A DNA stretch of 64,000 nucleotides, from positions 1-64,000 of the forward strand of contig JAAYGX010000108.1 in NCBI GenBank assembly GCA_012735585.1, in the 5' to 3' direction. Shown here piece by piece: positions 11,484 through 52,690 of the stretch. A program made the translations under genes and the position numbers. The notes beneath the pieces were generated by a model, which worked only from the letters and a program-made list of their open reading frames with translations, was not told the origin of the DNA and searched no databases. Position 1 is the stretch's first letter, and every line of letters begins with the position of its first letter. This stretch comes from Tissierella sp. (GTDB lineage Bacteria > Bacillota > Clostridia > Tissierellales > Tissierellaceae).

Positions 11484-11523
11484 CGTATGGCAGACTGTGA
11501 CCTACTGTTTAAAAGGAGGAAAT

Positions 11524-12660
11524 ATGAAGGAGTTAAGTATATATATACATATTCCATTTTGTAGTAGTAAATGTTTTTACTGTGATTTCACCTCGTTTTC
11601 AGGTCAAAGTAATAGAGTTAAAGAATATATAGATAGTTTAATTGTAGAATTATCCCTTCATAAAGATAGCTTACAAGATTATAGAATTAAGACCATATTC
11701 ATAGGTGGTGGAACTCCATCAGCTATAGATGCAAAATATATATTTAAGGTATTAGATTATATATACAAAAATTTTAATATTTCCAGTGATATGGAAGTAA
11801 GCATGGAACTAAATCCAGGAACCATTGAATTTGAAAAATTAAATATATATAAAGAAGCAGGTATCAATAGAATTAGTATGGGACTGCAAACATTTAATAA
11901 TAATATTTTAAAGAAGTTGGGAAGAATACATAGTGCTGAGGATTTTTTACAATCTTACAATATGTTAGATAATGCTGGCTTTGAGAATATAAATGTAGAT
12001 TTGATGTTTAACTTACCTGATCAAACCATATCTGATGGAATGAAAGATGTTGAAGCACTAGTAAGATTAGGTGTAAAACACATTTCTTATTATAGTTTAA
12101 TTATTGAGCCTGGTACATTGATGCATAAATGGCATCAAGAAAACAGGCTAAAATTATTGGATGAGGATAGTGAAAGAAAGCTATACTATAATGTTAAGGA
12201 TTTTTTGAAAGAAAATGGATATCAGCATTATGAAATATCTAATTTCTCTATGAAGGATTATGAGTGCAAACATAATATGGTTTACTGGAAGATAAAGCCA
12301 TATATTGGAGTAGGCCTAAGTAGTCACTCTTACTTAAATAATAAAAGATTTTGGAATACTGATGATTTAAGTAGTTATATTCAAGAGTTAAAGAAGGGCA
12401 AATTACCTATAGAGGAAGATGAGATCATCTCTAAGGACATTGAAATGGCAGAGTTTTGCATATTTGGCTTAAGATTGGTAGAAGGTATTGATAAAAGGGA
12501 ATTTAAAGATAAATTTGGTGTAGATATTAAAGTTTTATACAAAGATACCATTGAAAAGCATAAAAATAGTGATCTTTTATTTGAGGATGATAGGTATTTG
12601 AAGTTAACTGATAAAGGATTAGATTTGGCTAATATAGTGGAGGTAGACTTTTTACCTTAA
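11524..12660 (+). CDS. hemW: HemW-like radical SAM protein
   Basis: A 378-aa radical SAM protein of the HemN/HemW family. The cluster motif CxxxCxYC appears as FCSSKCFYCDF near residues 14-24, with the GGGTPS motif after it. The family includes HemW haem chaperones and HemN oxidases. The length and the position next to lepA/hrcA match HemW, which is often misnamed coproporphyrinogen oxidase. ATG 11524 follows AAAAGGAGGAAAT; an upstream in-frame ATG at 11497 lacks a ribosome site. Confidence 0.9.
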   Translation: MKELSIYIHIPFCSSKCFYCDFTSFSGQSNRVKEYIDSLIVELSLHKDSLQDYRIKTIFIGGGTPSAIDAKYIFKVLDYIYKNFNISSDMEVSMELNPGTIEFEKLNIYKEAGINRISMGLQTFNNNILKKLGRIHSAEDFLQSYNMLDNAGFENINVDLMFNLPDQTISDGMKDVEALVRLGVKHISYYSLIIEPGTLMHKWHQENRLKLLDEDSERKLYYNVKDFLKENGYQHYEISNFSMKDYECKHNMVYWKIKPYIGVGLSSHSYLNNKRFWNTDDLSSYIQELKKGKLPIEEDEIISKDIEMAEFCIFGLRLVEGIDKREFKDKFGVDIKVLYKDTIEKHKNSDLLFEDDRYLKLTDKGLDLANIVEVDFLP

Positions 12661-12678
12661 TTATTAATGTTTTTTCTA

Positions 12679-12707
12679 TTGACAAATCTAAATCTAAATG
12701 ATATTTT
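12679..12707 (+). promoter_or_regulatory. Sigma-A type promoter of the hrcA operon
   Basis: A perfect TTGACA at 12679-12684, a 17-bp spacer and TATTTT at 12702-12707. The CIRCE operator begins 13 nt downstream, so HrcA bound there would cover the transcription start. Confidence 0.8.
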
Positions 12708-12720
12708 ATTAATGTAGGAT

Positions 12721-12747
12721 TTAGCACTCGTTACATTTGAGTGCTAA
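12721..12747 (+). promoter_or_regulatory. CIRCE operator
   Basis: TTAGCACTC-N9-GAGTGCTAA, a perfect match to the CIRCE consensus bound by the HrcA repressor. It controls the downstream hrcA-grpE-dnaK unit. Confidence 0.97.
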
Positions 12748-12782
12748 CAATAGCATCCAAAGTATAATCCGAGGTGAGAATC

Positions 12783-13817
12783 ATGTTGGATGAAAGAAAA
12801 ATGAAGGTTTTGTATGCAATTATTAAAAGCTATATAGACAGTGCAGAGCCTATTGGCTCAAGAACCATATCAAAGAACTTTGAACTAGGGGTTAGTTCTG
12901 CCACTATAAGAAATGAAATGTCAGATTTAGAAGATTTGGGATACTTAAGTAAGACCCACTCATCCTCAGGAAGAGTTCCTTCTGACAAAGCCTATAGATT
13001 ATATGTAGATGAATTATTAAAACTTAATAAATCATCCATTGATAAATTAGAAAATCAGAAGATTAAAGAGATATTAGCTAAAGAATCATGGGATATAGAT
13101 GAGATTGTACAAAGTTCAGCCAAAATTTTGTCAGCTATAACAAATTATACTTCTGTAGTAGCTACTCCAAAGCTAAAAGGTAGTAGAATTAAACAACTAC
13201 AATTAGTTAGCATAGAAGGCTTAGGAGTATTAATAGTTATTGTATGCAATAATGGATTAATAAAAAATTCCATTTACAAGACGAATATAGAGGTTGAACA
13301 GGAAGAATTAATTAAAATTTGCAACTTTCTAAATGAAAGATTCAATGATAAAACAATGGATGAAATCTTAGTCAATTTAAACATAGATATATTTAAAGAA
13401 GTATTGGATTATCAAGATTTCTTAAAAGGACTATTAATTGTTATCCAAAGATCCATAGAAGAACTGATATCAATAGAATTGTATTCAGAAGGAATAATGA
13501 ATATATTGAATTTTCCTGAATATAGGGATATCGAAAAGGCAAAATCATTCATTTCCTTTGTTGAAGATAAGAATTTATTATTGAATATTCTTCAAAAGAC
13601 TTCCGTGTCCCAAGGTATAGATATTCTTATAGGACAAGAGAATATTTATTCACCGATAAAAGATATAAGTATTATAACTGCTACTTATACCATAGGTGGG
13701 AGGACAATAGGAAAAGTAGGATTAATTGGGCCGACTAGGATGGATTATTTAAATTTAATAAGGACTTTAAAGATATTTTCATCCCATGTAAGCAATATAT
13801 TGGATTTAAATGATTAA
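12783..13817 (+). CDS. hrcA: Heat-inducible transcription repressor HrcA
   Basis: A 344-aa repressor of chaperone genes. The N-terminal winged helix (IGSRTISKNF, SSATIRNEMSDLEDLGYL) binds CIRCE. The central GAF-like domain and the C-terminal region (IGPTRMDY) are complete. Start ATG 12783 lies 6 nt after GAGGTG; a GTG at 12774 overlaps that site. Being first in its own operon behind CIRCE makes it autoregulated. In known systems GroEL sets its activity. Confidence 0.96.
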   Translation: MLDERKMKVLYAIIKSYIDSAEPIGSRTISKNFELGVSSATIRNEMSDLEDLGYLSKTHSSSGRVPSDKAYRLYVDELLKLNKSSIDKLENQKIKEILAKESWDIDEIVQSSAKILSAITNYTSVVATPKLKGSRIKQLQLVSIEGLGVLIVIVCNNGLIKNSIYKTNIEVEQEELIKICNFLNERFNDKTMDEILVNLNIDIFKEVLDYQDFLKGLLIVIQRSIEELISIELYSEGIMNILNFPEYRDIEKAKSFISFVEDKNLLLNILQKTSVSQGIDILIGQENIYSPIKDISIITATYTIGGRTIGKVGLIGPTRMDYLNLIRTLKIFSSHVSNILDLND

Positions 13818-13838
13818 TGATAAAATTGAGGTGAGAAG

Positions 13839-14366
13839 ATGGTATTTAACAAAGGTAAAGATGATGAAAACCTTGAGGATAATGAACTTGAGGAAAATGA
13901 AGAGGTTGAAGAGCCTGAAATCAATGAAGAAACGTCTCAGAATGACACAGAAATCGAAGATTTAACATTAAAACTGACTAGAATGCAGGCAGATTATAAT
14001 AATTTAAAGAGACGCTCTGAAATTGAAAAAAAAGGATCCATTGATTTTGGTATAGAGACATTGGCTTGTCAAATATTACCAGTATTGGACAACTTTGATA
14101 GAGCTATGGAAGCTGAAAGTGACAAGGAATCAAGTTTTTATCAAGGAATCAATATGATTTATTTACAGTTAATTGAAACATTAAATAAAGCTGGTATTAA
14201 AGAAATTGATGCATTAAATAGTGCTTTTGACCCCAATCTACACAATGCAATAATGGTGGAAGAATCAGAAGAACATGAAGAAGGCATTGTCATAGGTGTC
14301 CTACAAAAAGGATACCAATTTAAAGATAAAGTTATAAGACCAAGTATGGTAATGGTCTCAAAATGA
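13839..14366 (+). CDS. grpE: Nucleotide exchange factor GrpE
   Basis: A 175-aa GrpE that releases ADP from DnaK. An acidic, disordered N-terminus (residues 5-40) is followed by the long dimerising helix (RMQADYNNLKRR) and a C-terminal beta domain with FDPNLHNAIM and VLQKGYQFKDKVIRPSMV. It lies 21 nt after hrcA with a GAGGTGAG ribosome site. Confidence 0.96.
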   Translation: MVFNKGKDDENLEDNELEENEEVEEPEINEETSQNDTEIEDLTLKLTRMQADYNNLKRRSEIEKKGSIDFGIETLACQILPVLDNFDRAMEAESDKESSFYQGINMIYLQLIETLNKAGIKEIDALNSAFDPNLHNAIMVEESEEHEEGIVIGVLQKGYQFKDKVIRPSMVMVSK

Positions 14367-14385
14367 CATATTAGGAGGAATATAA

Positions 14386-16194
14386 ATGGGAAAAATAATA
14401 GGAATTGACTTAGGTACTACAAACTCAGCTGTTGCTGTTATGGAAGGTGGAGAGCCTGTAATAATACCTAATGTTGAAGGTAATAGAACTACTCCTTCAG
14501 TAGTAGCATTTACTAAAGATGGAGAGAGACTAGTTGGAGAAACTGCAAAAAGACAAGCAATAACAAACCCTGATAGAACGATTCAATCAATAAAGAGAGA
14601 AATGGGTAGTGACTATTCAACAGATATAGACAATAAGAAGTATTCACCACAAGAAATATCTGCAATGATACTATCAAAAATCAAAGCAGATGCTGAAAGT
14701 TATTTAGGAGAAACAATCACAGAAGCTGTTATAACTGTACCTGCATACTTTACAGACAGTCAAAGACAAGCAACTAAAGATGCTGGACGAATAGCTGGTT
14801 TAGAAGTTAAAAGAATTATAAATGAACCTACAGCTGCTGCATTATCTTATGGAATGGACAAAGAAGAAGGTCAACGTAAGATCATGGTATTTGACTTAGG
14901 TGGAGGTACTTTTGACGTATCAATCCTTGAATTAGGAGATGGCGTGTTTGAAGTATTAGCAACAAGAGGTAACAACAGTTTAGGTGGAGATGACTTTGAT
15001 AATACATTAATCAAATATATAAATGAAGAATTTAAAAAAGAAAATGGTATTGATTTAACAAATGACAAAATGAGTTTACAAAGATTAAAAGAAGCTGCAG
15101 AAAAAGCTAAAAAAGAATTGTCAACGACAATGTCAACAAATATCAACTTACCATTTATAACAGCAACTCAAGCTGGACCATTACACTTAAATATGGATAT
15201 TACTAGAGCAAAATTTGAAGAATTGACTTCAAGTTTAGTTGATAGTACAATAGAACCTGTAAAAGCTGCACTTAAAGATGCTGGATTACAAGCTTCAGAG
15301 ATTGAACGTGTAATACTAGTAGGGGGTTCAACAAGAATTCCGGCTGTTCAAGCAGCGGTTAAAAACTTAACCGGTAAAGAACCTCAAAAAGATATCAACC
15401 CTGACGAATGTGTGGCTTTAGGAGCTGCTATACAAGGTGGGGTACTAAGTGGTGAAGTTAAGGACTTACTGTTATTAGACGTTGCACCATTATCCCTTGG
15501 TATCGAAACATTAGGTTCAGTAACTACAAAGTTAATTGAAAGAAATACAACGATACCTACTAAGAAATCACAAGTGTTTACAACAGCTGCTGACAATCAA
15601 ACATCAGTTGATATACATGTACTTCAAGGTGAAAGACAAATGGCTAGTGACAATACTACACTAGGTAGATTCCAATTGACTGGAATAGCTCCAGCACCAA
15701 GAGGAGTTCCACAAATCGAGGTTACTTTTGATATAGATGCTAATGGTATAGTAAATGTTACAGCTACAGATAAAGGTACAGGAAAAGAACAAAGAATTAC
15801 AATTACATCCTCAACTAAATTATCAGATGAAGAAATTGAGCAAAAAGTAAAAGAAGCAGAAAGATTTGCAGAAGAAGACAAAAAGAAAAAAGAATCCATA
15901 GAAATTAGAAACAATGGTGATTCACTAGTTTATCAAACTGAAAAATCTCTTAAGGATTTAGAGGGTAAAATTTCCGATGAGGAAAAATCAGATATTGAAG
16001 GCAAATTAGAAACACTTAAGAAAGCACTTGAAGGTGACGATATGGATGATATCAAGTCAAAAACTGAGGAACTTACTGAAGCTTTCTACAAAGTTTCTGA
16101 AAAACTATATGCAGACATGAACCAAGGAGCAGAAGGTGCAAACCCAGAAGATGATGTAGTTGATGGAGATTATGAAGTAGTAGATGAAGACTAG
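14386..16194 (+). CDS. dnaK: Chaperone protein DnaK (Hsp70)
   Basis: A 602-aa Hsp70. Nucleotide-binding motifs are [24 protein letters not shown] and [12 protein letters not shown]. The linker [16 protein letters not shown], the substrate domain and a C-terminal lid ending in an acidic tail are all present. It is intact and full length, with an AGGAGG ribosome site. Its partner dnaJ downstream is interrupted (see that entry). Confidence 0.98.
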
Positions 16195-16220
16195 TAAAAT
16201 TATGTGTCATTGAATTTTTC

Positions 16221-16296
16221 TGTCATTCTGAGGAGCTTGTGACGAAGAATCTTTGTTTTTGGGCCCTAAGATTCTTCGCCTACGCTCAGAATGACA
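16221..16296. repeat. Palindromic intergenic repeat between dnaK and dnaJ
   Basis: The left arm (16221-16253) begins TGTCATTCTGAG and ends GAAGAATCTT. The right arm (16268-16296) begins AAGATTCTTCG and ends CTCAGAATGACA, so the two fold into one long hairpin of about 29 bp with small interruptions. Elements with this TGTCATTCTGAG...AGAATCTT pattern are familiar as dispersed palindromic repeats in many bacterial genomes. It has no coding capacity. A second small hairpin (GGGTGGAT / ATCCACCC, 16324-16344) lies between it and dnaJ. Confidence 0.75.
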
Positions 16297-16375
16297 ACCA
16301 TAATAAAGGCACATTCTTTTTAAGGGTGGATGACATATCCACCCGTTAATTTTGATTTAGAAGGTTGGTGAGAAA

Positions 16376-17509
16376 GTGGCAAGAGATTACTATGAAATTC
16401 TTGATATAGAGAAAAATGCATCAGAATCTGATATAAAAAAAGCATATCGTAACTTGGCTAAGAAATATCATCCAGATTTAAATCCAGATAATAGTGAAGC
16501 AGAGCAAAAATTTAAGGAAGCAACTGCAGCTTATGAAATATTAAGTGACCCAGACAAAAGGTCAAGATATGATAGATATGGTCATGCAGGTGTTGACCCA
16601 CAGGCAGGTGGGGGAGACTTTGGTGGCTTTGGTGATATATTTGAAGATATATTTGATATCTTTGGTGGTGGATTTGGAGGATATTCTCAAGGAGCTAGAA
16701 GAAACGGTCCAGCTAAGGGTACGGATTTAAGATATAATCTAAACCTTGAATTTAGAGAAGCCGTATTTGGAGTAGAAAAAGAAATACAGTTTAAAAGGTC
16801 AGAGTCTTGTGCAACTTGTGATGGCTCAGGAGCTGCGCCAGGTAGCCATAAGGAAACTTGTTCTAAATGTCATGGTTCAGGACAAATAAGATAAACACAA
16901 CAAACACCACTTGGACAATTTGTAAGAGTAGGTACTTGTGACCTATGTAATGGAAGCGGGGAAGTTATAGAAGAGAAATGTGATACATGTGGTGGAAGTG
17001 GTAAAGAGAACAAAAGTAGAAAAATTAAAGTAAAAGTTCCAGCAGGTGTTGATAATGGCTCTGTAATTTCCTTAAGAGAAGAAGGAGAAGCAGGATCAAA
17101 TGGTGGTCCACCAGGGGACTTGTATGTTTATATTAGTGTCAAGGAAGATCCAGTCTTTAAAAGACAAGGCAATCATTTATTTATAGATATGCCAATTACC
17201 TTTACTGAAGCCGCACTAGGAGCTGAAATTGAAGTCCCGACTTTAGAAGGCGTAGAGAATTTTAATTTAAGTGAAGGAACCCAAACAGGTACAAGATTTA
17301 AGTTAAAAGGAAAAGGCGTAGCAAGCCTTAGAGGTATAGGCAAAGGAGACTTATATTTTACTGTAAATATAAAAGTACCATCTAAATTGACTGAAAAACA
17401 AAAAAATCTGTTATTGGAATTTGCAAATGAGTCAGGAGAAGAATATAAACAAGCAAATGAACAGAAAAAAGGATTCTTTGATAAAGTAAAAGATGCATTT
17501 CATAATTGA
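16376..17509 (+). pseudogene. dnaJ: Chaperone protein DnaJ, interrupted by an in-frame TAA
   Basis: Read through, this is a normal DnaJ of about 377 aa: J domain with HPD at residues 32-34, a G/F-rich linker, four CxxCxGxG zinc repeats (two before and two after the break) and the C-terminal substrate domain. A TAA at 16892-16894 (codon 173) falls inside the zinc domain just after GSGQIR; the same frame resumes at once with TQQTPLGQF, a family-typical sequence. No frameshift is present. If real, the cell makes a fragment with only the J domain, G/F region and half the zinc domain. The GTG start follows a weak GGTGAG site. The palindromic repeat separates it from dnaK. Confidence 0.85.
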
Positions 17510-17510
17510 T

Positions 17511-17541
17511 AGGACAAGAGATTTCTCTTGTCTTATTTTGT
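17511..17541 (+). terminator. Terminator after dnaJ
   Basis: AGGACAAGAG / CTCTTGTCTT stem with an ATTT loop at 17511-17534, followed by ATTTTGT. Confidence 0.8.
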
Positions 17542-17626
17542 ACGCTTAATTTTTTGTTTCACTAGTAATTCTTTTACTATTAGGATATAATTTATTAAAG
17601 ATTTATTACAAAGGAAGTGTTGTTTA

Positions 17627-18562
17627 ATGAAGTGGGTAGAAGTAATAGTCAGAACAATTCCAGAGAACGAAGATATTGTTTCTGATATTTTATATCAAGC
17701 AGGAGCAGTAGGACTGGCAATAGAAGATCCTCAGGATTTCATAGATTTAACCAATGATAAAAAATCATGGGATTTTATAGATGAAAGTCTAATGAGCTTT
17801 GATCATGAGGGGGTTTCATTAAAAGCTTATTTTGCTGAATCAGAAGATATTCCTAAAATAGTGGACTTTATTAAAAATAGGGTAATACATAAACCCTTAG
17901 AAGAAGAAGGTAAGTCCTATGGAGAAGTAATACTTAATTCAGTAGATGATGAAGAGTTTTCTGAGTCATGGAAAAAGTATTATAAACCCTTAAAAATAGG
18001 CAATAGAATTATTATAAAACCTTCTTGGGAAGATTACGATGAAAAGGTAAATGATTTAATTATAGAGCTAGATCCTGGTATGGCTTTTGGGACAGGTACC
18101 CACGAGACAACTGAAATGTGTGCAGAAGCCTTAGAATCCCTTGTAAAGCCAGGGGATCATATATATGACATAGGTTGTGGCAGCGGCATACTTTCTATTG
18201 TAGCTGCTAAATTAGGGGCAGAGAAAGTTACTGCAATAGATATAGACCCCGTTTGTATAGATGTATCAAATGAAAATATCAAAATAAATGGTGTAGAGGA
18301 TATAGTGCAGGCTTATAAGGGAGATTTATTCAATGTAGTTAGTGATAAAGTAGATTTAATAGTTTCAAATATTATTGCTGAAGTAATAGCTGGCATGGTA
18401 AAAGATCTAAATACCTATCTGAAAGATGATGGTATATTTATTACATCAGGAATTATTTTAAGCAAAGTTGAATTAGTGGAAAATGCTTTAAAAGAAAATA
18501 ATTTCAAAATATTAGAGATCAAGAGATTAGGAGAATGGGCATGTATTATTGCTCAAAAATAG
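17627..18562 (+). CDS. prmA: Ribosomal protein L11 methyltransferase
   Basis: A 311-aa SAM-dependent enzyme that methylates ribosomal protein L11. An N-terminal substrate-recognition domain is followed by the methyltransferase fold: LDPGMAFGTGTHETTEMC, the SAM-binding IYDIGCGSGILSI, then VSNIIAEV. ATG 17627 follows AAAGGAAGTG. It begins a tight rsmE-mtaB-hinT run. Confidence 0.95.
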   Translation: MKWVEVIVRTIPENEDIVSDILYQAGAVGLAIEDPQDFIDLTNDKKSWDFIDESLMSFDHEGVSLKAYFAESEDIPKIVDFIKNRVIHKPLEEEGKSYGEVILNSVDDEEFSESWKKYYKPLKIGNRIIIKPSWEDYDEKVNDLIIELDPGMAFGTGTHETTEMCAEALESLVKPGDHIYDIGCGSGILSIVAAKLGAEKVTAIDIDPVCIDVSNENIKINGVEDIVQAYKGDLFNVVSDKVDLIVSNIIAEVIAGMVKDLNTYLKDDGIFITSGIILSKVELVENALKENNFKILEIKRLGEWACIIAQK

Positions 18563-18571
18563 GTGATATCA

Positions 18572-19315
18572 TTGCATAAGTTTTTTGTAGAAAAAAATCA
18601 AATTCAAGATAATAATATTTACATTTCCGGTAAGGACTTAATTCACATAAAAAATGTCCTAAGGCTAAAACCGGCTGATAAGATAGAAATCTCTTGTGGT
18701 GGGACTAATTATTTAGCAGAAATAATTGAATTTTCAAAGGAAAATATTATAACTAGGATCATCAATAGTTCTATAGGAAATAGAGAATCATCAATAGAGA
18801 TCACATTATATCAGGGACTAGCCAAAGGTAGCAAAATGGATTTAATAATTCAAAAATGTGTGGAGATTGGTGTAAAGGATTTTTATGCTATAGAGACAGA
18901 TAGAGCAGTAGTTAAAATCACTGATAAGAAAAAAGAAGATACAAAAATACAAAGATGGCAATCTATAGCAGAGGAAGCAGCGAAGCAATCTAAAAGAGAT
19001 TATATACCTAAAATCAAAGGTATCATCAGTTTTAATGAAATGATTGATATTTTAAAGGAAGAAAAAAATATAATCGTTCCCTATGAAAACGAAGAAAACT
19101 TAAGTATAAAAGATGGACTCAAAGCAGTTGAAGGAAATAAAATAAATCTAATAATAGGACCTGAAGGTGGATTTGAAAATAATGAAATAAAATCCCTAGA
19201 GAATATAGGGGCAAGCATTGTAACTTTGGGACATAGAATTCTTAGAACAGAAACTGCAGGTTTAGTATCATCGACAATTATTTTATATGAGCTTGGAGAT
19301 TTAGGAGTGATTTAA
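18572..19315 (+). CDS. rsmE: 16S rRNA (uracil-1498-N3)-methyltransferase
   Basis: A 247-aa SPOUT methyltransferase that modifies U1498 of 16S rRNA. The N-terminal PUA-like part starts MHKFFVEK. The C-terminal knot has LIIGPEGGFENNEI and LGHRILRTETA, the SAM-binding signature. TTG 18572 is chosen because AGGTGAT lies 5 nt upstream and the N-terminus then matches the family; GTG 18563 overlaps that site. Its TAA overlaps the ATG of mtaB. Confidence 0.93.
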   Translation: MHKFFVEKNQIQDNNIYISGKDLIHIKNVLRLKPADKIEISCGGTNYLAEIIEFSKENIITRIINSSIGNRESSIEITLYQGLAKGSKMDLIIQKCVEIGVKDFYAIETDRAVVKITDKKKEDTKIQRWQSIAEEAAKQSKRDYIPKIKGIISFNEMIDILKEEKNIIVPYENEENLSIKDGLKAVEGNKINLIIGPEGGFENNEIKSLENIGASIVTLGHRILRTETAGLVSSTIILYELGDLGVI

Positions 19316-20610
19316 TGAACAAAGTTGCATTTCATACTTTAGGATGCAAAGTAAATCAATATGAGACTGAAGCTATGGAAAAGATGTTTGAAGATAAAGG
19401 ATATGCTATTGTTAAGGAAGACGAGGCAGCAGACGTCTATGTAATTAATACTTGTACCGTAACCAATCTGTCAGATAGAAAATCTAGACAATTTATTAGA
19501 AGGGTTAAAAAGATAAACCATAACTCTATAGTCGCAGTAGTAGGCTGTTATTCACAAGTTTCCCCAGAGGAAGTTGAAAATATCGAAGGTGTAGATGTAA
19601 TCATAGGGACTAGTGATAGAAACAAAATCGTAGAGCTTTGTGAAAAGGCAAAGGATGACAATCAAAAGATCAATATCGTAAGAAGTATCAAAACCTACGA
19701 TGAGTTTGAAGAAATAAATGTAGATGATATAAAGTCTATGACTAGAGCATATATCAAAATACAAGATGGGTGCAATCAGTTTTGCTCTTATTGTATCATA
19801 CCTTATGCAAGAGGGCCGATTAGAAGTAGACAAATACATGATATAATAGATGAAACTGAGAAACTAAAGTCAGCAGGATTTAAGGAAGTTGTCCTTACTG
19901 GTATCCATGTTGCATCCTATGGTAAGGATTTAGGAGATACAAGATTAGATAGTGTAATTAAAGAAATTGATTCTATTAATGGTATAGAGAGAATTAGACT
20001 AAGTTCCGTAGAGCCTAATTTAATCACCGAGGAATTTATGAATGTTTTAGTAGGATCCAACAAGGTATGTGACCATTTTCATCTTTCTTTACAAAGTGGA
20101 TCAGATAATATACTTAAAAGAATGAATAGAAAATATACCACAGATGAATATAGAGAAAAAGTAGAACTTATAAGAAGATATATGCCAAATGCAGGGATTA
20201 CTACGGATATCATCGTTGGTTTTCCTGGTGAAAGTGATGAGGATTTCGAAGAAACTCTTCAATTTGTAAAGGATATAAAATTTTCCAAAATACAAGTATT
20301 CAAATATTCCCCAAGGAAAGGAACTCCAGCAGCAAAATTTGAAGATCAAATTCATGGCACAATAAAGAATCAGCGAAGTGAAAGATTGATACAGCTAGCT
20401 GATGATTTAATGGAAAAGTTTTATAAAAAGCAAATTGGTAGTACAATGAAGGTACTGTTTGAAGAAGTCAATGAAGGATATTATGAAGGTTACACTTCAA
20501 ACTATATTAGAGTTAAATCTTATTCAGAAAAAGACATTATTGGTCAATTACTTGATGTTAAAATAATTGATAGTGAAGGTGAGTATTTAGTAGGTAAGAT
20601 TGGGAGGTGA
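19315..20610 (+). CDS. mtaB: tRNA t6A37 methylthiotransferase MtaB
   Basis: A 431-aa radical SAM methylthiotransferase that converts t6A37 to ms2t6A37 in tRNA. The N-terminal UPF0004 domain carries Cys in LGCKVNQYE, INTCTV and VVGCYSQ. The radical SAM motif is CNQFCSYC, and a C-terminal TRAM domain follows. The TLGCKVNQYE start marks the MtaB rather than MiaB subfamily. It overlaps rsmE by one base. Confidence 0.95.
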   Translation: MNKVAFHTLGCKVNQYETEAMEKMFEDKGYAIVKEDEAADVYVINTCTVTNLSDRKSRQFIRRVKKINHNSIVAVVGCYSQVSPEEVENIEGVDVIIGTSDRNKIVELCEKAKDDNQKINIVRSIKTYDEFEEINVDDIKSMTRAYIKIQDGCNQFCSYCIIPYARGPIRSRQIHDIIDETEKLKSAGFKEVVLTGIHVASYGKDLGDTRLDSVIKEIDSINGIERIRLSSVEPNLITEEFMNVLVGSNKVCDHFHLSLQSGSDNILKRMNRKYTTDEYREKVELIRRYMPNAGITTDIIVGFPGESDEDFEETLQFVKDIKFSKIQVFKYSPRKGTPAAKFEDQIHGTIKNQRSERLIQLADDLMEKFYKKQIGSTMKVLFEEVNEGYYEGYTSNYIRVKSYSEKDIIGQLLDVKIIDSEGEYLVGKIGR

Positions 20611-45063: not shown

Positions 45064-45798
45064 TTATTTAAATATATAATCGGAATTTCCGTCTCTAAAA
45101 GAAGTAGGTGAAATTCCAGTTTGCTTCTTAAATTGATGAGTAAAGTAACTTTGGCTATTAAACCCTACTAATATGGCAATATCAAGAATGGATTTGTCAG
45201 AATTAGCTAGAAGTTATTTACTTTTTTCAATTCGAGTATGGGTTATATAAGTACTAAAGTTCATATTAGTCTCCATTTTAAATTTAGTACAAAAATAACA
45301 CCTACTTAAATTAACATGGTCTGATACCATATCTAAACTAATATCCTCGCCTAGATTATCATGGATATAATCAATAGCTTTCCTTATACAAATACTATCT
45401 ACAGAATTTTTATTATGCATTAATTGGGTTGAATATGCTTTAATCATCATTTTCCCAATTTTAATAAGCTCTACTTCGGAATTAGCTCTTTCTATTAATT
45501 TAGAAAAGGCATGATATTTTGCCTTTACACTATATGTAGAAACTCCTTTTTTAATCACACCATGACAAATCAATAGAGAAATAGATACTATATAACTTTT
45601 TAAATATGCGATATTCTTACTGTCTAAAATATTATAAATAGTATTCTTCCTAATAAAATCCTCGTATAATTTTAAGGCTTTCTCCACTTCTCCGTTTAGA
45701 ATATTTTCTACAATAGCAATTTCAAATTCATAAGTACCATGATACTCATCTATATTAGGCTTAGGATAGGAAAGGACGCCTATGTCTTTACTAAACAA
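45064..45798 (-). pseudogene. AraC-family regulator, interrupted by an in-frame TAA
   Basis: Read through, this is a 244-aa AraC-type activator: an N-terminal sensor region of about 140 residues, then the two-helix DNA-binding domain. A TAA at 45214-45216 (codon 195) falls after RIEKSK, between the first and second helix-turn-helix. The same frame continues with LLANSDKSILDIAILVGFNSQ and FTHQFKKQTGISPTSFR, the intact second HTH. The fragment before the stop would lack half the DNA-binding domain. The TTG start follows AAGGGAGTG. It diverges from the flavodoxin/nitrogenase-like operon and has a Fur-like box upstream, so it was probably the operon activator, possibly responding to the imported ligand. 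Confidence 0.82.
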
Positions 45799-45950: not shown

Positions 45951-45965
45951 TGATAATCATTATCA
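45951..45965 (+). promoter_or_regulatory. Fur box of the nitrogenase-like/haem transport operon
   Basis: TGATAATCATTATCA is a perfect match to the 7-1-7 Fur consensus and sits inside a longer near-palindrome (45941-45969). It lies 18 nt before the flavodoxin start and just after a TATGAT -10-like hexamer (45933-45938). Iron-loaded Fur would block transcription, so the operon should be on during iron starvation. Confidence 0.88.
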
Positions 45966-45982: not shown

Positions 45983-46489
45983 ATGAAGATGAGTATAGTG
46001 TTTTCTTCACTAACTGGAAATACAAAGAAGGTTGCAGAAGAAATTTTACAAATTATGCCGAAAGGTACAGATATATATGATTTAAAAGAATTAGATCATG
46101 GATTAGAAGATGAACTTTTGGTTTTAGGTTATTGGGTAGATAGGGCCAATCCCAATAAGGAGATGGTAGAGTTTATGGAAACCTTTAAAGATAAAAAGAT
46201 AATTACATTTGGTACATTGGGGGCATATCCTGACTCAGACCATGCAAATGAGACAAAGGAAAATACAACCAATATATTAGAAAAGAACAATGAAGTTTTA
46301 GGAAACTTCCTTTGTCAAGGTAAGATCAATCCTAAGATCACTGAAATGTTCATGAAAGGCGGAGAAGGCAAGGTACATAAAATGACACCAGAACGACTAA
46401 AGAGACACCAAGATGCAGCAAGTCATCCTAATGAGGAAGACTTTAACAATGCAAGAAATTTTGTGGAAAGTATATTGATGAATTTATAA
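45983..46489 (+). CDS. Flavodoxin-like protein (probable electron donor)
   Basis: A 168-aa flavodoxin fold with the FMN phosphate loop SSLTGNTKKVAEEI at residues about 6-19, then LVLGYWVDRANPN and FGTLGAYPDSDHA, the flavin-contacting loops. It looks like the flavodoxin branch found with iron and haem acquisition genes rather than classic FldA. Flavodoxins replace ferredoxin when iron is scarce and can reduce NifH-type proteins. As the first gene after a perfect Fur box, it is inferred to feed electrons to the NifH-like protein. ATG 45983 follows AAGGAGGAAG; an upstream ATG at 45944 overlaps the Fur box. Confidence 0.85.
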   Translation: MKMSIVFSSLTGNTKKVAEEILQIMPKGTDIYDLKELDHGLEDELLVLGYWVDRANPNKEMVEFMETFKDKKIITFGTLGAYPDSDHANETKENTTNILEKNNEVLGNFLCQGKINPKITEMFMKGGEGKVHKMTPERLKRHQDAASHPNEEDFNNARNFVESILMNL

Positions 46490-46635: not shown

Positions 46636-47382
46636 ATGAAAAAAATTGCAATATATGGTAAAGGTGGCATTGGTAAATCTACAACTGTTTCAAATCTTTC
46701 AGCTGCCTTATCAAACTTAGGATATAAAGTAATGCAGGTAGGTTGTGATCCTAAGGCAGATTCAACAAAAACTCTAATGGGTGGTAACTTTATACCAACA
46801 GTACTAAATGTTCTAAGAGACATGGGAGATGATATTGACTTGGAAGATATCGTATTTGAAGGCTATAATGGTGTCCTATGTGTGGAGGCGGGAGGACCTA
46901 CACCTGGAATTGGTTGTGCTGGTAGAGGAATAATCACTGCTTTTGAAAAACTAGAAGAACTAGAAGCTTTTGAAAACTACAAACCAGATATCGTTATTTA
47001 TGATGTTTTAGGCGATGTGGTTTGTGGCGGATTTGCTATGCCTATTAGAAATCAATATGCAAATGAGGTCTATATTGTGACATCAGGTGAGATGATGAGT
47101 ATGTATGCAGCATCCAATATATCTCGTGCTGTAATGCAATTTAAATCAAGGGGATATGCAGAGCTAAAGGGTCTTATACTAAATGCCAAAAACGTAGAAA
47201 ATGAAATAGAATTGGTAGATAAATTATGTGAGGAAATAGACACAAGTGTATTTCATTACATACCGAGGAATCCAATTGTCGAAGAGGCCGAAAATAGTGG
47301 ACAAACTGTAATAGAAGGATTCATCGACTCAGATATGTCAAAGATTTATTTAGATTTAGCTAAGAAAATAATGGAGGAATAA
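46636..47382 (+). CDS. NifH-like nitrogenase-family Fe protein
   Basis: A 248-aa ATP-dependent reductase of the NifH/BchL/CfbC superfamily. Walker A is GKGGIGKST (8-16) and the switch region is [10 protein letters not shown] (35-44). The two [4Fe-4S] ligands are conserved: Cys94 in [12 protein letters not shown] and Cys130 in [13 protein letters not shown]. As a homodimer it should hold the cluster between subunits and pass electrons to the NifD/K-like pair at the operon end. It is shorter than true NifH (about 270-295 aa), and no FeMo-cofactor genes (nifB, nifE/N) are in the window, so nitrogen fixation is unlikely. ATG follows AAAGGAGA. Confidence 0.93.
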
Positions 47383-47383
47383 A

Positions 47384-48328
47384 ATGAAAAGAAAATCTTT
47401 ATTAATATTATTAATTTTAAGTCTTATGGTAAGTTTGGTAGCTTGTAGTAGTGGAGGGCCTGATAAAGACAATGATGTGGATGCAGTAATAGAAAATGAT
47501 GTGGAAAAAGAAGATGATATACAAGAAAATGAAGTTGAGGGTATGGAAGATAAAAGAATAATAGCAGGTACACTAATGTCTGCTGAATTATTGGATTTAT
47601 TTGATGTAAATCCTGTTGGAGTATTAACTAGTGAAAAAGGATTACCAGCAAGATATGATAATACAGCTAAAATAGGTTCACCTATGAAGCCAGATTTAGA
47701 AATAGTGACTTCATTAGAACCTGAAGTGTATATAACAGATGCTTCACAAGAGGAAGCTTTAGAAGAATTGTTTAAAGGTAGCGATTTTGAGATGCTATAT
47801 TTAAGTAACAACTCCTATGAAAATATATTTACAAATATAGAAAATGTAGGACAGTACTTAGGAAAAGAAGATAAAGCAAATGAAATTATAAGTGAAATGA
47901 GGGCTAAAGAAAAGAGAATTATGGATTCTGTTGCCGGTAAGGAATCACCTAATGTCTTAGTATTATTTGGGACACCTGAAAGTTTTATGATAGCAACTCC
48001 GAATTCATATACTGGAAACTTAGTAGAGAAATTAGGTGGAACTAACGTGGCAAGTGATTTAGCACAGGGTAAACCAATGCCTTACCTACCATTTAGTTTG
48101 GAAACCATAGCAGATATGAATCCAGATATTATTTTAAGATTAACCCATGTATCGCCTGAATTAAGTAGAAAGGCCTTTGAAGAAGAGTTTTCAAAGGGAT
48201 TCTGGACGAATCTTGACGCTGTTAAAAATGATAATGTATTTGACTTAGATCCAGATCACTTTGGAGTTACAGCAAATATGAGGGTTATGAGTGCTTTGGA
48301 GAATATGGCAGAAATATTATATAACTAG
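47384..48328 (+). CDS. IsdE-like haem/iron-complex binding lipoprotein
   Basis: A 314-aa ABC substrate-binding lipoprotein. The signal peptide ends at lipobox LVAC with Cys21, followed by an acidic linker, then the two-lobed periplasmic-binding fold. It resembles Staphylococcus IsdE in RYDN ... GSPMKPDLEIV, ATPNSYTGNLVEKLGG and NPDIILRLTHVSPE. IsdE binds haem through Met78 and His229; the matching residues here are Met101 and His255, separated by almost the same distance (154 vs 151). Haem, or a similar iron tetrapyrrole, is thus the inferred ligand. Alignment is from memory; a siderophore remains possible. It is 1 nt after the NifH-like gene. Confidence 0.88.
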   Translation: MKRKSLLILLILSLMVSLVACSSGGPDKDNDVDAVIENDVEKEDDIQENEVEGMEDKRIIAGTLMSAELLDLFDVNPVGVLTSEKGLPARYDNTAKIGSPMKPDLEIVTSLEPEVYITDASQEEALEELFKGSDFEMLYLSNNSYENIFTNIENVGQYLGKEDKANEIISEMRAKEKRIMDSVAGKESPNVLVLFGTPESFMIATPNSYTGNLVEKLGGTNVASDLAQGKPMPYLPFSLETIADMNPDIILRLTHVSPELSRKAFEEEFSKGFWTNLDAVKNDNVFDLDPDHFGVTANMRVMSALENMAEILYN

Positions 48329-48339
48329 GAGAATCAAAA

Positions 48340-49329
48340 ATGATTAAATCTTTAAATAAAAACAAACATATTTATATATTTTTTTCACTAATTATTCTTA
48401 TGTTTGTTGTATTGTTGGCAATAAGACTAGGAAGTGTAGAGTATAGCTTTTCTAAAATATTAGATGCTTTATTAAGCACAGAAATGACCTCAGATAAAAA
48501 TATAATCTTGAACATAAGATTACCTAGAATTGTTGTTGCAACCATAGTAGGAGCGAACCTGGCAGTAGCTGGAGCACTATTACAAGCAGTTATGCAAAAT
48601 CCATTGGCAGACCCTGGTTTAACTGGGGTTTCTTCTGGGGCAAGTCTAGCAGCGATTATTATAATGCTTCTATTTCCCCAATATACTTATTTAGTGCCAA
48701 TAGTAGCATTTTTAGGTGGTGCTGTAGCCTGTGCTCTAGTGTATACCCTAGCATGGAAAAATGGAATCAAACCTGTGAGGATTATATTAGCAGGGGTAGC
48801 GGTCAATGCAATCCTAGGCGGTGGAACTTCCTTATTATCAATTTTATATAGTGATAGAATCCAAGGAGTATTGATGTGGGTTAACGGAAGTATCGCCGGT
48901 AAAACATGGGAGGATGTAAGATTATTATGTACATATAGTGTTATTGGTTTGATTGTGGCAATGTTTTGTATTAGAAAGGCAAATATACTTCAACTAGGTG
49001 ACGAGATGTCCTCAAACCTTGGAGTAGATACTAATAAATATAGACTTTTTATTTCTTTGGTTGCAGTATTTTTAGCTGCAATATCCACATCTATCGTTGG
49101 GGTAGTAGGTTTTGTAGGGCTAATAGTTCCTCATATTGCAAGATTAATCGTAGGATCTGATTATAAGTATTTACTTCCATTTAGCGTGATACTAGGAAGT
49201 GGGCTGCTACTACTAGGAGATACTTTTGCGCGAACCATAGCTAGACCGATAGAGCTACCAGTAGGAGTTATTATGGCAGTTGTTGGAGGACCATTCTTTC
49301 TATACCTATTAAGGAGGGGAAAAGCATGA
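48340..49329 (+). CDS. FecCD-type ABC permease (haem/siderophore class)
   Basis: A 329-aa membrane protein with about ten helices typical of the FecCD/BtuC family: RLPRIVVATIVGANLAVAGA, QAVMQNPLADPGLTGVSSGA and GFVGLIVPHIARLIVGSDYK. Only one permease is present, so it should work as a homodimer. It moves the ligand of the preceding lipoprotein across the membrane. Its stop overlaps the ATPase start (ATGA at 49326-49329). Confidence 0.95.
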   Translation: MIKSLNKNKHIYIFFSLIILMFVVLLAIRLGSVEYSFSKILDALLSTEMTSDKNIILNIRLPRIVVATIVGANLAVAGALLQAVMQNPLADPGLTGVSSGASLAAIIIMLLFPQYTYLVPIVAFLGGAVACALVYTLAWKNGIKPVRIILAGVAVNAILGGGTSLLSILYSDRIQGVLMWVNGSIAGKTWEDVRLLCTYSVIGLIVAMFCIRKANILQLGDEMSSNLGVDTNKYRLFISLVAVFLAAISTSIVGVVGFVGLIVPHIARLIVGSDYKYLLPFSVILGSGLLLLGDTFARTIARPIELPVGVIMAVVGGPFFLYLLRRGKA

Positions 49330-50138
49330 TAGAAGCAAAGAATTTAAAGATAGCTTATGAAGAAAAGATAGTGATCAAAGACTTTTCCTTCAATGTAAGA
49401 GAAGGTGAAATGGTATCCATTATAGGACCAAATGGCTCAGGAAAATCTACTATTCTAAAAACCATATCTAGATTGCTTAAACAAAAAAATGGGGCAATTT
49501 TTTTAGAAAAAGAAGATATTAGTCATATAAATATAAAAAAGATTGCACAGAAGATGTCCAGTCTATCACAGCATAATAGAAGCCCAGAAGATATAAGCGT
49601 AAAAGAACTTATTTATTACGGAAGAATGCCTCATAAAAAATGGTACGAATTAAAAACCAAAGAAGATGAAGATATCATCCAATGGGCAATAGATAAGACT
49701 TCACTACATGGATTTAAAGATAAGAAAGTAATAGAACTATCAGGAGGAGAGAGACAAAGAGTATGGATCGCCATGGCTTTGGCTCAGAGACCTAAGATAC
49801 TACTTCTTGATGAACCAACTACTTATCTAGATATATGTCATCAGTTGGAAGTAATGGAGCTTGTAAAGTCTCTAAATGAAGAATTAGGGCTAACTGTAAT
49901 AATGGTGCTACATGATCTAGGACAAGCTGCCAAGTATAGTCATAGGGTAGTAGTAATCAAAGATGGAGATTTAGTAGTGGAAGGAAATCCATCAAAGGTA
50001 TTGACCGTGGATTTAATAAAAGAAGTATATAATGTAGAGGTTTGTATAAGAAAAGATATATTAAAAGATGAAATGATCATACACCCAGTAGGTGTATGTA
50101 AAACTTGTGAAACGAGGTGCACCGATGAAGCAATTTGA
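49326..50138 (+). CDS. ABC transporter ATPase with Cys-rich tail
   Basis: A 270-aa FepC/BtuD-type ATPase. Walker A is GPNGSGKST (about 36-44), the signature is LSGGERQRVWIAMAL, and Walker B is ILLLDEPTTYLD. The last 30 residues are an unusual extension with GVCKTCETRC, a CxxCxxxC pattern that could bind a metal or a cluster. It overlaps the permease by 4 nt and the NifD-like gene by 14 nt, physically tying transport to the reductase. Confidence 0.95.
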   Translation: MIEAKNLKIAYEEKIVIKDFSFNVREGEMVSIIGPNGSGKSTILKTISRLLKQKNGAIFLEKEDISHINIKKIAQKMSSLSQHNRSPEDISVKELIYYGRMPHKKWYELKTKEDEDIIQWAIDKTSLHGFKDKKVIELSGGERQRVWIAMALAQRPKILLLDEPTTYLDICHQLEVMELVKSLNEELGLTVIMVLHDLGQAAKYSHRVVVIKDGDLVVEGNPSKVLTVDLIKEVYNVEVCIRKDILKDEMIIHPVGVCKTCETRCTDEAI

Positions 50139-51450
50139 TTTAGATAGATTATCTAGACTTAATGATATAAAAGAAAATGACGATATAAAAGCCTTATCCC
50201 ATGCAATATTTCCTGGCACTCACTGTCCATTATTTGGAGTAGCAATGATTGCATCATTTATAGAGGATTTGGTGGTAGTAGTAGCGGGAACTCAGGAATG
50301 TACTTATTATGCTAAGGATTTTGCATATCAAAGACAATATGGTAAGGATAATTTTTATTCAGTAGTAACCAACAAGCATGATATTACCTTTGGATGCGAG
50401 GATAAAATAAAAGAAGTGATATTTGAAATAGACAGGACAATCAATCCTAAAGCAATTATGCTAGTATCCACATGTGTATTAGAATTAATAGGAGAAGACT
50501 TTGTAGGATTAAAAGAATCTATCCAGGATGAAGTAAATGCTAAATTATTAGTAGTACCTACAGAGCATTTTAAATGTAATAGCCATATTCCAGGAATGGA
50601 AAGATCACTGGAACAACTGGTTACAGTAATGGAGAAATGCGACATAGATAATAATAGTATAAATATCCTAGGGCATAGACAGCATGGCATAGAGAATACA
50701 GAACTTATGAAACTTCTAATAGATGAGGGAATCCATATTAATTCTGTTATACCATCAAAGACCACAATAGAAGAGTTAAGATTTGCACCAAGGGCAAAAT
50801 TAAATATAGTTACAGATTTTGTAGCACTACCAATGGCAAAGAAGATGGAAGATATCTTTAATATTCCCTATGTATATTTTGACAAACATCTATCCATAGA
50901 TAGAATAAGAAATAGCTACAAAAAAATTGAAGAATTTTTAAATATAAAGTTGCTTTCAAAGCTGAATGAAAAGGAAGCTGAGCTAAATTCTCTAATGGAA
51001 GAAGCAAGAAAAATTCTGAAGGGCAAAACCTTTATCTATGGTAATACTCCTATGATGGCATTTGAAATAAGCAGTTTTCTATGCGATTTAGGAATGGAGC
51101 CAATTTTAGTACAGGTTAGGGATCTATATGAAAATGATTCCATCTATATGGAGGAGATAAAAAGACATGGTCACAATCCATATATCAGTAGAATAGCCAA
51201 TATAGCACCGATGCAATCTATATATGATCAGTGTAAGCCGAATTTCTATTTAGGACATGAGAATCCTATGAACCTTGCAAAGAGAAATATAATCCAGATA
51301 ACATTGGATGAAGTAACTAAAAAATTAGGATATGAAATACCGATAGATAGCATAAAGAAGATATTATTATCCCTTGAACAACACGAAGAAATGAAAGATA
51401 AAATGAAGAAAATGGCAGCAAAGGGAGGTATGAAACATGGACTTTTATAA
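50125..51450 (+). CDS. NifD/NifE-like nitrogenase-family component 1 subunit
   Basis: A 441-aa protein of the oxidoreductase/nitrogenase component 1 fold. Three Cys lie where NifD holds its P-cluster ligands: Cys34 in GTHCPLFG, Cys59 in GTQECTYYAKD and Cys117 in STCVLELIGED, with spacings of 25 and 58 (26 and 66 in NifD). An extra Cys91 follows FG. NifD residues that hold FeMo-cofactor (a C-terminal His and Cys275) have no obvious match, so the active site is probably open, as in DPOR or CfbD. ATG 50125 follows CGAGGTG within the ATPase 3' end; a longer frame at 50092 is less likely. Confidence 0.9.
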   Translation: MKQFDLDRLSRLNDIKENDDIKALSHAIFPGTHCPLFGVAMIASFIEDLVVVVAGTQECTYYAKDFAYQRQYGKDNFYSVVTNKHDITFGCEDKIKEVIFEIDRTINPKAIMLVSTCVLELIGEDFVGLKESIQDEVNAKLLVVPTEHFKCNSHIPGMERSLEQLVTVMEKCDIDNNSINILGHRQHGIENTELMKLLIDEGIHINSVIPSKTTIEELRFAPRAKLNIVTDFVALPMAKKMEDIFNIPYVYFDKHLSIDRIRNSYKKIEEFLNIKLLSKLNEKEAELNSLMEEARKILKGKTFIYGNTPMMAFEISSFLCDLGMEPILVQVRDLYENDSIYMEEIKRHGHNPYISRIANIAPMQSIYDQCKPNFYLGHENPMNLAKRNIIQITLDEVTKKLGYEIPIDSIKKILLSLEQHEEMKDKMKKMAAKGGMKHGLL

Positions 51451-52690
51451 ATTTTTTCCAACACCATCAGATAGAATGGGGACCATATGGACACTGAGTA
51501 CTATTAAAGATGCTTATATAATTGAATTTGGTCCAGCAGGTACGACGCACTTTGCCATTGAAGGCCTTATGCAATTAAATGCAGACCATAATGCCAATGT
51601 ATATACAACCCATATCAATGAAACAGATATCTCCTTTGGAAAGCAAGATCGATTGGAAAATGCCATACTAGAAATAGATGGGCAACATAATCCTAAATAT
51701 ATATTTATAATGGCATCCTCTATATCAGCAATAATCGGTACAGATATAGATAGTATATGCTATGAAATGCAATCTAAAGTAAATGCCAAGCTAATCCCCA
51801 TAACTACTGGAGGATATAGTGGAGACCATACCCTAGGTATAGAAACAACCCTAGATATGCTCTGTAAAGAAGCCGTCAAAGAATCAGAAAATAAGATAGA
51901 AAATAGTTATAATATCATAGGAAATAATGCAGATATTTTTAACTTCTTATCAGATGTTGAAGAAATAAAATCTCTTATGAAAAATGGATTTGGATTTGAT
52001 GTAAATACTATTTTTACGGCATATACATCTATAGATGAAATAGAGAATACTGCAAATGCAAATATGAACCTGGTTTTAAGGGGTGAAGGTATAAAAGCAG
52101 CTAAAACCCTTCAGAAAAACCATAATATAGAATATTATTATGGCAAGCCCTATGGGTTAGAAGGTACTACAAAATGGTTAAGAGAGCTAGAAAAAGTCTT
52201 GGGTATAAAAGTAAATGAATCCTATATAAATAAAAAAACAGCCCAAATAAGAAAATATCTAATGACTTTTAGATTTATGATAAGAGAAGTAGAAAATAAA
52301 TCTACCATATTAGTTGGAGATTATGATGTGGTTATTGGATTGGCAGATTTAGTAGAAGAGCTGGGACTTAAAGTCGAAGCTATTATAGTTAAGCATAAAC
52401 CATGTAAAGCAATAAAAAAATCAATCTCAGAAAAATGGGCAAGTTTAATTCAATTTGATATCAGTGAGAGGGAGTTAGAAAATTATCTAAAATCAACACC
52501 GTCCTATTTATTATTAGCAGATGGATCCACATTGGAGTTAGAAAATAGCTCCAGACTAAGTATGCAAATAGCAAATCCTAATTTTAAAAAATACAGTATC
52601 TATCCTCATACCCCCTTTGTAGGATATAATGGTACATTATATATGATTCAATCTTTATTTGAACTAAATAAAGCGAATCCTAGATATTAA
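51437..52690 (+). CDS. NifK/NifN-like nitrogenase-family component 1 subunit lacking cluster Cys
   Basis: A 417-aa partner subunit of the same fold. The positions that carry Cys in NifK are replaced: FGPAGTTHFA has Thr36, and IMASSISAIIG has Ser95; the N-terminal site reads PSDRMG. So this subunit gives no Cys ligand, and any cluster must rest on three Cys of the partner plus a non-Cys or solvent ligand, comparable to the Asp ligand of BchB. It overlaps the NifD-like gene by 14 nt, supporting a heterotetramer. A weak ribosome site (AAGGGAGG) precedes ATG 51437. Last gene of the operon. Confidence 0.88.
   Translation: MDFYKFFPTPSDRMGTIWTLSTIKDAYIIEFGPAGTTHFAIEGLMQLNADHNANVYTTHINETDISFGKQDRLENAILEIDGQHNPKYIFIMASSISAIIGTDIDSICYEMQSKVNAKLIPITTGGYSGDHTLGIETTLDMLCKEAVKESENKIENSYNIIGNNADIFNFLSDVEEIKSLMKNGFGFDVNTIFTAYTSIDEIENTANANMNLVLRGEGIKAAKTLQKNHNIEYYYGKPYGLEGTTKWLRELEKVLGIKVNESYINKKTAQIRKYLMTFRFMIREVENKSTILVGDYDVVIGLADLVEELGLKVEAIIVKHKPCKAIKKSISEKWASLIQFDISERELENYLKSTPSYLLLADGSTLELENSSRLSMQIANPNFKKYSIYPHTPFVGYNGTLYMIQSLFELNKANPRY

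Follow-up and report, generated by a model that had tools for sequence, protein, structure and literature searches.

The gene for a substrate-binding lipoprotein of the kind that serves iron-related importers lies among nitrogenase-like genes in the stretch of DNA analysed here (the window; 64,000 nucleotides of contig JAAYGX010000108.1 from Tissierella sp.), which raises two questions, namely what the lipoprotein binds and what a nitrogenase-like enzyme would do beside such an importer. The explanation that best fits the evidence, to which we assign a probability of roughly 0.58, is that a haem importer under Fur control works together with a nitrogenase-like reductase whose substrate is haem or a product of haem. 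According to this model, haem would sit in the cleft of the lipoprotein of an anaerobic Tissierella-like bacterium, with Met101 on one side and His255 on the other, and would be carried inward by the FecCD permease and the ATPase. A flavodoxin and a NifH-like ATPase would pass electrons on to a NifD/NifK-like reductase, which would have a single [4Fe-4S]-type cluster and lack FeMo-cofactor; this reductase would then reduce the macrocycle of haem, or else a tetrapyrrole derived from haem, and iron would thereby be released, or readied, without oxygen. The reduction step by the NifH/NifDK-like complex is our inference from how the genes are linked and controlled by Fur, from the pattern of cluster ligands, and from the fold; linkage of a transporter and an enzyme does not prove a common substrate.

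The operon is encoded on the plus strand in the order flavodoxin, NifH-like protein, substrate-binding protein (SBP), FecCD permease, ATPase, NifD-like subunit, and NifK-like subunit. The flavodoxin (45983..46489; Flavodoxin_3, PF12641, 196.8 bits), which has a start codon with a ribosome-binding site and is the probable electron donor, is BilS-like but scored 118.6 bits on the BilS model, below the cut-off of 155. The NifH-like iron protein, the ATP-dependent reductase component (46636..47382; PF00142, 328.9 bits), was under the cut-offs of both the NifH model (356.3 bits versus 394) and the CfbC model (355.5 versus 402). The SBP (47384..48328, 314 aa; Peripla_BP_2, PF01497, 104.4 bits), the FecCD-family permease (48340..49329; PF01032, 332 bits), and the ABC transporter ATPase (49326..50138; PF00005, 122.9 bits) form a complete FecBCD-type importer set; the best NCBIfam matches of the ATPase, both under cut-off, were FecE and the heme ABC transporter ATP-binding protein (235.1 versus 261). 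The two catalytic subunits, NifD-like (50125..51450; PF00148, 200 bits) and NifK-like (51437..52690; PF00148, 292.5 bits), follow.

A Fur box, TGATAATCATTATCA (45951..45965), with 0 mismatches to the 7-1-7 consensus, is located 17 bases upstream of the flavodoxin start codon and is the only site in the window with one mismatch or fewer, against an expectation of 0.18. The 3.0 Mb assembly contains six perfect sites, that of the operon included, and two of the other five also adjoin SBP genes. Fur-like sites with no more than two mismatches were present in the leaders of 9 of 14 related operons; upstream sites at the three named C. difficile loci and at L068 have three mismatches, non-significant on their own, and none was found upstream of the L081 operon. 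Fur control, with Fur acting as a repressor in the model above, is the best reading of these predicted sites.

The SBP open reading frame begins with ATG preceded by the ribosome-binding site GGAGG, and the encoded protein has the lipobox LVAC, with Cys21 invariant in the homologue alignment. Residue 101 is Met, within GSPMKPDLEIV (codon at 47684..47686, plus strand), and residue 255 is His, within ILRLTHVSPE (codon at 48146..48148, plus strand); in the alignment with IsdE of Staphylococcus aureus, GSPMKPD falls on GQPMEPN and LRLTHVSPE on LRLPHGMPE. An earlier note on this DNA had equated the two residues with Met78 and His229 of IsdE and had given their spacing as 154 residues against 151 in IsdE; a script-numbered alignment proved the equivalence exact to the residue and bore out the spacing, and with the IsdE alignment and a structure model in hand both residues sit, by alignment, at the haem-ligand sites. 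The corresponding residues of IsdE have been probed with an M78A; H229A double mutant, according to a reference title in PMC12670364, a review that also describes the handing of haem from IsdE to the permease IsdF; in group A Streptococcus HtsA, the ligands are Met79 and His229 (PMC4684392). The two best phmmer matches in the PDB were HupD/Lmo2184 (5joq, 5.5e-50) and S. aureus IsdE (2q8p, 4.6e-40), which were ahead of other SBP matches by >20 orders of magnitude in E-value, the match to HtsA being far weaker (3e-16). Judged by its sequence, the protein thus resembles haem-catching proteins and has both of the residues known to grip haem, and it is very likely to bind haem.

An AlphaFold model of the SBP, built on nine nif-linked homologues (pLDDT about 83-97 per block in the folded part), has the IsdE fold, matching 5joq with Z 31.9 and the IsdE-haem structure 2q8p with Z 29.9 and an rmsd of 2.6 Å over 256 residues; the next chain followed at Z 24.9, and haem, B12, and siderophore binders were mixed from there (VIA-align). 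In addition to the fold, the lipobox, and the Met and His sites, the system shares a FecCD-type permease partner and Fur control with those of IsdE (S. aureus Isd) and HupD (Lmo2184, Listeria); however, identity to these proteins is 32-35%, and the system differs from theirs in being encoded with nitrogenase-like genes, in a genome without a NEAT gene. On the IsdE equivalog model TIGR03659 the SBP scored 274.8 bits, below the curated cut-off of 298.65, as did five of six nif-linked relatives (243-288 bits), the sixth, from L067, scoring 357.7 and so above it. Nif-linked SBPs were placed mostly on a branch apart from the IsdE and HupD group in the phylogeny. Because of the sub-threshold score and the placement outside this group, the protein is called IsdE-like rather than a certified IsdE. 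A single origin of all nif-linked SBPs was rejected, the tree requiring four label changes; gain or loss of nif linkage has therefore probably happened repeatedly.

The specificity of the Met/His pair was assessed in a background sample of 35 open reading frames taken from Peripla_BP_2 matches in 60 genomes and in the Tissierella genome itself, including a few mis-picked neighbouring frames. Met was found in 5 of the 35 and His in 7, and the only frame with both encodes a protein that is itself IsdE-like. FeuA, a bacillibactin binder, also has Met in the Met101 column, so that Met101 by itself was rejected as haem evidence, and His occurs at the His255 column of unrelated SBPs; neither residue alone is therefore informative. 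The pair, by contrast, was near-universal among proteins similar to this SBP as long as identity was at least about 28-30%, and was lost at lower identity; together with its restriction in the background sample to an IsdE-like protein, this distribution makes it, as judged by alignment, a marker of the IsdE lineage. At the Met position, L008, a locus without nif genes, has Arg and L029 has Phe.

The search for related operons covered genomes from the class and from the order as well as a named collection. The core set, consisting of nifH, SBP, permease, ATPase, nifD, and nifK, was found in at least 15 further distinct loci (counting L082, whose nifH falls past the contig end), among them those of Tissierella pigra, an Oscillospiraceae MAG, Terrisporobacter, Clostridium mediterraneense, Paraclostridium benzoelyticum, C. 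gallinarum, and three genomes titled Clostridioides difficile. Several families of Clostridia show this linkage of the six core genes, and in more than one gene order, the order being changed in L067 and L069 with the core set still together. His is kept in 16/16 distinct operons of this type and Met in 13 of the 15 that could be read, the column being unreadable in the truncated L082; the SBPs of C. mediterraneense and C. gallinarum (L083 7311-8195 and L087 2939-3826) have Phe in place of Met and retain His, and Met is thus not obligatory for the system. Among the nitrogenase-like operons at a greater distance (NifD 27-38% identical), the SBPs of L074, L076, L109, and L110 are without the His, and the Met/His SBP therefore tracks one enzyme subtype. 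A wider family, including L074, L076, L110, L109, L070, and L071, combines NifHDK-like proteins and FecCD-type importers with other SBPs; for operons of this family whose SBPs lack His, the sequences suggest other metallophore or tetrapyrrole substrates.

Several of the related operons carry haem-related genes. The L067 operon holds, at 11496-19371, a sortase gene between the ATPase and nifH genes, a gene for an LPXTG NEAT protein, and one for a protein of 1192 aa that combines NEAT domains with a Shr-like haemoglobin-interacting domain; a NEAT protein gene also lies inside the L069 operon, and no other NEAT genes occur in the two genomes. In the Tissierella genome, no NEAT gene was found by the same search, which was positive in G189, G211, and G226. 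Directly after nifK, L082, L083, L084, and L087 have a related small gene, the product of which in L087 has a PNPOx fold and matched the haem-utilisation families HugZ (137 bits) and HutZ (117 bits), both under cut-off; beside the window operon, no HugZ-like gene was found. At L079, an IsdE-like importer without nif genes occurs together with NEAT, Shp, and a BilS-like flavodoxin. The claim that the operon handles haem rather than a catecholate or hydroxamate siderophore is accordingly supported, in that the closest folds and sequences are those of IsdE and HupD; further backing comes from two related operons that contain NEAT, Shr-type, and sortase genes, from the HugZ/HutZ-like gene after nifK in four others, and from the perfect Fur box ahead of the operon. 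There is good reason to expect that haem is the substrate carried by the importer.

The nitrogenase-like enzyme differs from molybdenum nitrogenase, which has the FeMo-cofactor Cys275 and carries P-cluster cysteines on each of its two subunits, a combination that the operon enzyme does not show. Cys34, Cys59, and Cys117 of the NifD-like subunit are invariant in an alignment of 20 sequences and are putative cluster ligands; Asp231 occupies the position of Cys275, and the NifK-like subunit has Thr36 and Ser95 at cysteine positions and keeps none of its cluster cysteines. The NifD-like model was closest to chains of DPOR (dark protochlorophyllide reductase, a tetrapyrrole reductase), with Z 30.6, followed by methylthio-alkane reductase (Z 28.5) and the nitrogenases (about 26-28), these two groups together covering 25.7-28.5; this lead of about 2 Z units is small and may come partly from shorter chains. 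By sequence search alone, nitrogenase alpha chains ranked first, and the subunit has more in common with nitrogenase alpha and NifE than with DPOR; for this reason the modelled resemblance to DPOR is treated as moderate evidence. All DPOR subunit models scored below threshold (79.1 and 122.5 bits versus the BchB cut-off of 490.35; 212.6 versus 345 for BchL), and no counterpart of Asp, the fourth cluster ligand of BchB, was evident in the NifK-like subunit. The architecture of a NifH-like protein with two NifDK-like subunits, three Cys in one subunit, and no FeMo-co cysteine is nevertheless common to DPOR (BchLNB) and the operon enzyme, although identity is only about 15%, scores are far under the model cut-offs, and there is no chlorophyll pathway context. 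CfbCD, the Ni-sirohydrochlorin a,c-diamide reductive cyclase, also performs tetrapyrrole chemistry, and the NifH-like protein scores on CfbC as it does on NifH; however, CfbCD has CfbD alone where the operon has two different catalytic subunits, the scores are under cut-offs, and the operon enzyme, unlike CfbCD, is bacterial and adjoins haem import genes. It is slightly more likely than not that the enzyme acts on haem or a haem product.

Haem import could also be real while the enzyme serves a sulfur or nitrogen compound or a non-haem iron source, the two having only the Fur control of iron-starvation functions in common. Distant relatives do accompany other SBPs, and the substrates of nitrogenase-like enzymes are diverse, with methylthio-alkanes among them according to the abstract of PMC12552129, while a role of such enzymes in isethionate assimilation is described in that of PMC11423573; however, importer and enzyme genes are tightly interleaved in all 16 operons despite the variation in gene order, the absence of the FeMo-co cysteine and the DPOR-like fold count against it, and the HugZ/HutZ-like and NEAT neighbours are haem genes, so that this alternative is considered unlikely. 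Still less probable is an importer for another cyclic tetrapyrrole (coproporphyrin, a corrinoid, or a bilin) or a siderophore, with Met and His inherited from an IsdE-like ancestor: the Peripla_BP_2 folds of B12 and siderophore binders are close (BtuF Z 22.9, HtsA-staphyloferrin Z 23.6) and Phe replaces Met in two related operons, but IsdE and HupD lead by at least 5 Z units in addition to their lead in E-value, the His is invariant, and NEAT/Shr genes occur at the same loci. A third alternative, in which haem is imported for use as a cofactor and the enzyme produces or alters a modified tetrapyrrole cofactor with no iron release, would agree with the resemblance of the NifH-like and NifD-like parts to DPOR, COR, and CfbCD, the known tetrapyrrole members of the superfamily, which are biosynthetic, but is highly improbable given the Fur-box control, which indicates iron starvation, and the HugZ/HutZ-like gene, which indicates breakdown.

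Haem import coupled to haem reduction therefore remains the preferred reading, and it suggests that some oxygen-free bacteria process haem by a nitrogenase-like enzyme. The more specific proposal, that an enzyme of the nitrogenase superfamily, with its own importer and electron donor, breaks down imported haem reductively and without O2 to obtain iron in Clostridia, with Clostridioides difficile genomes among them, is tentative and falls somewhat short of probable. If true, a haem-catabolic branch would join a superfamily of N2, chlorophyll, F430, and methylthio-alkane chemistry, with a bearing on how strict anaerobes free iron from haem; the IsdE-like ligands point to haem as a concrete candidate substrate of the nitrogenase-like enzyme, which opens the question to direct test. 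In the literature searched, with most subscription papers outside reach, no published link of nitrogenase-like genes with haem uptake was found, and this literature contains no description of a nitrogenase-like enzyme tied to a haem importer. In a November 2025 review, the section on anaerobic haem degraders names, as far as consulted, ChuW and the ChuS/HemS/HmuS group, and the review does not mention nitrogenase anywhere (PMC12670364).

Two known systems resemble the proposed one in part. ChuW/HutW, a radical-SAM enzyme unrelated to the nitrogenase-like enzyme of the operon, degrades haem without oxygen and with a flavodoxin donor according to the same review (PMC12670364), as is proposed for the operon. 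A HutW/ChuW protein was rejected for the Tissierella genome, the best match reaching only 196 bits, under the cut-off of 400; the radical-SAM protein of the HemW/HutW kind in the window (11524-12618, plus strand), which scored 196 bits against this HutW cut-off, is probably HemW-like. As in the bilirubin reductase BilR/BilS (PMC10769871), a BilS-type flavodoxin stands beside a suspected tetrapyrrole enzyme in the operon; the operon differs in that its flavodoxin is under the BilS cut-off and no BilR-like gene is among its identified genes.

Further observations concern individual loci. CD630_29970-29990, encoding an iron-family ATPase, a permease, and an SBP, is suspected from gene order alone to be the C. 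difficile counterpart, and these genes respond weakly to low iron and to fur mutation (PMC6311696); none of the readings above relies on this suspicion. The Paraclostridium nifK (L084 4838-6057) is in two frames, and the G301 SBP (L068 12581-13353) is disrupted near its N-terminus. Divergent from the window operon is a gene for an AraC-type regulator (45214..45798, minus strand; Pfam HTH_AraC) with an open frame of 194 aa; compared with its 242-aa Tissierella pigra homologue (tblastn with the L080 protein), it has one in-frame stop, which precedes the C-terminal helix-turn-helix part, and the regulator may be inactive or the stop an assembly error. A homologue of this regulator adjoins several of the related operons.
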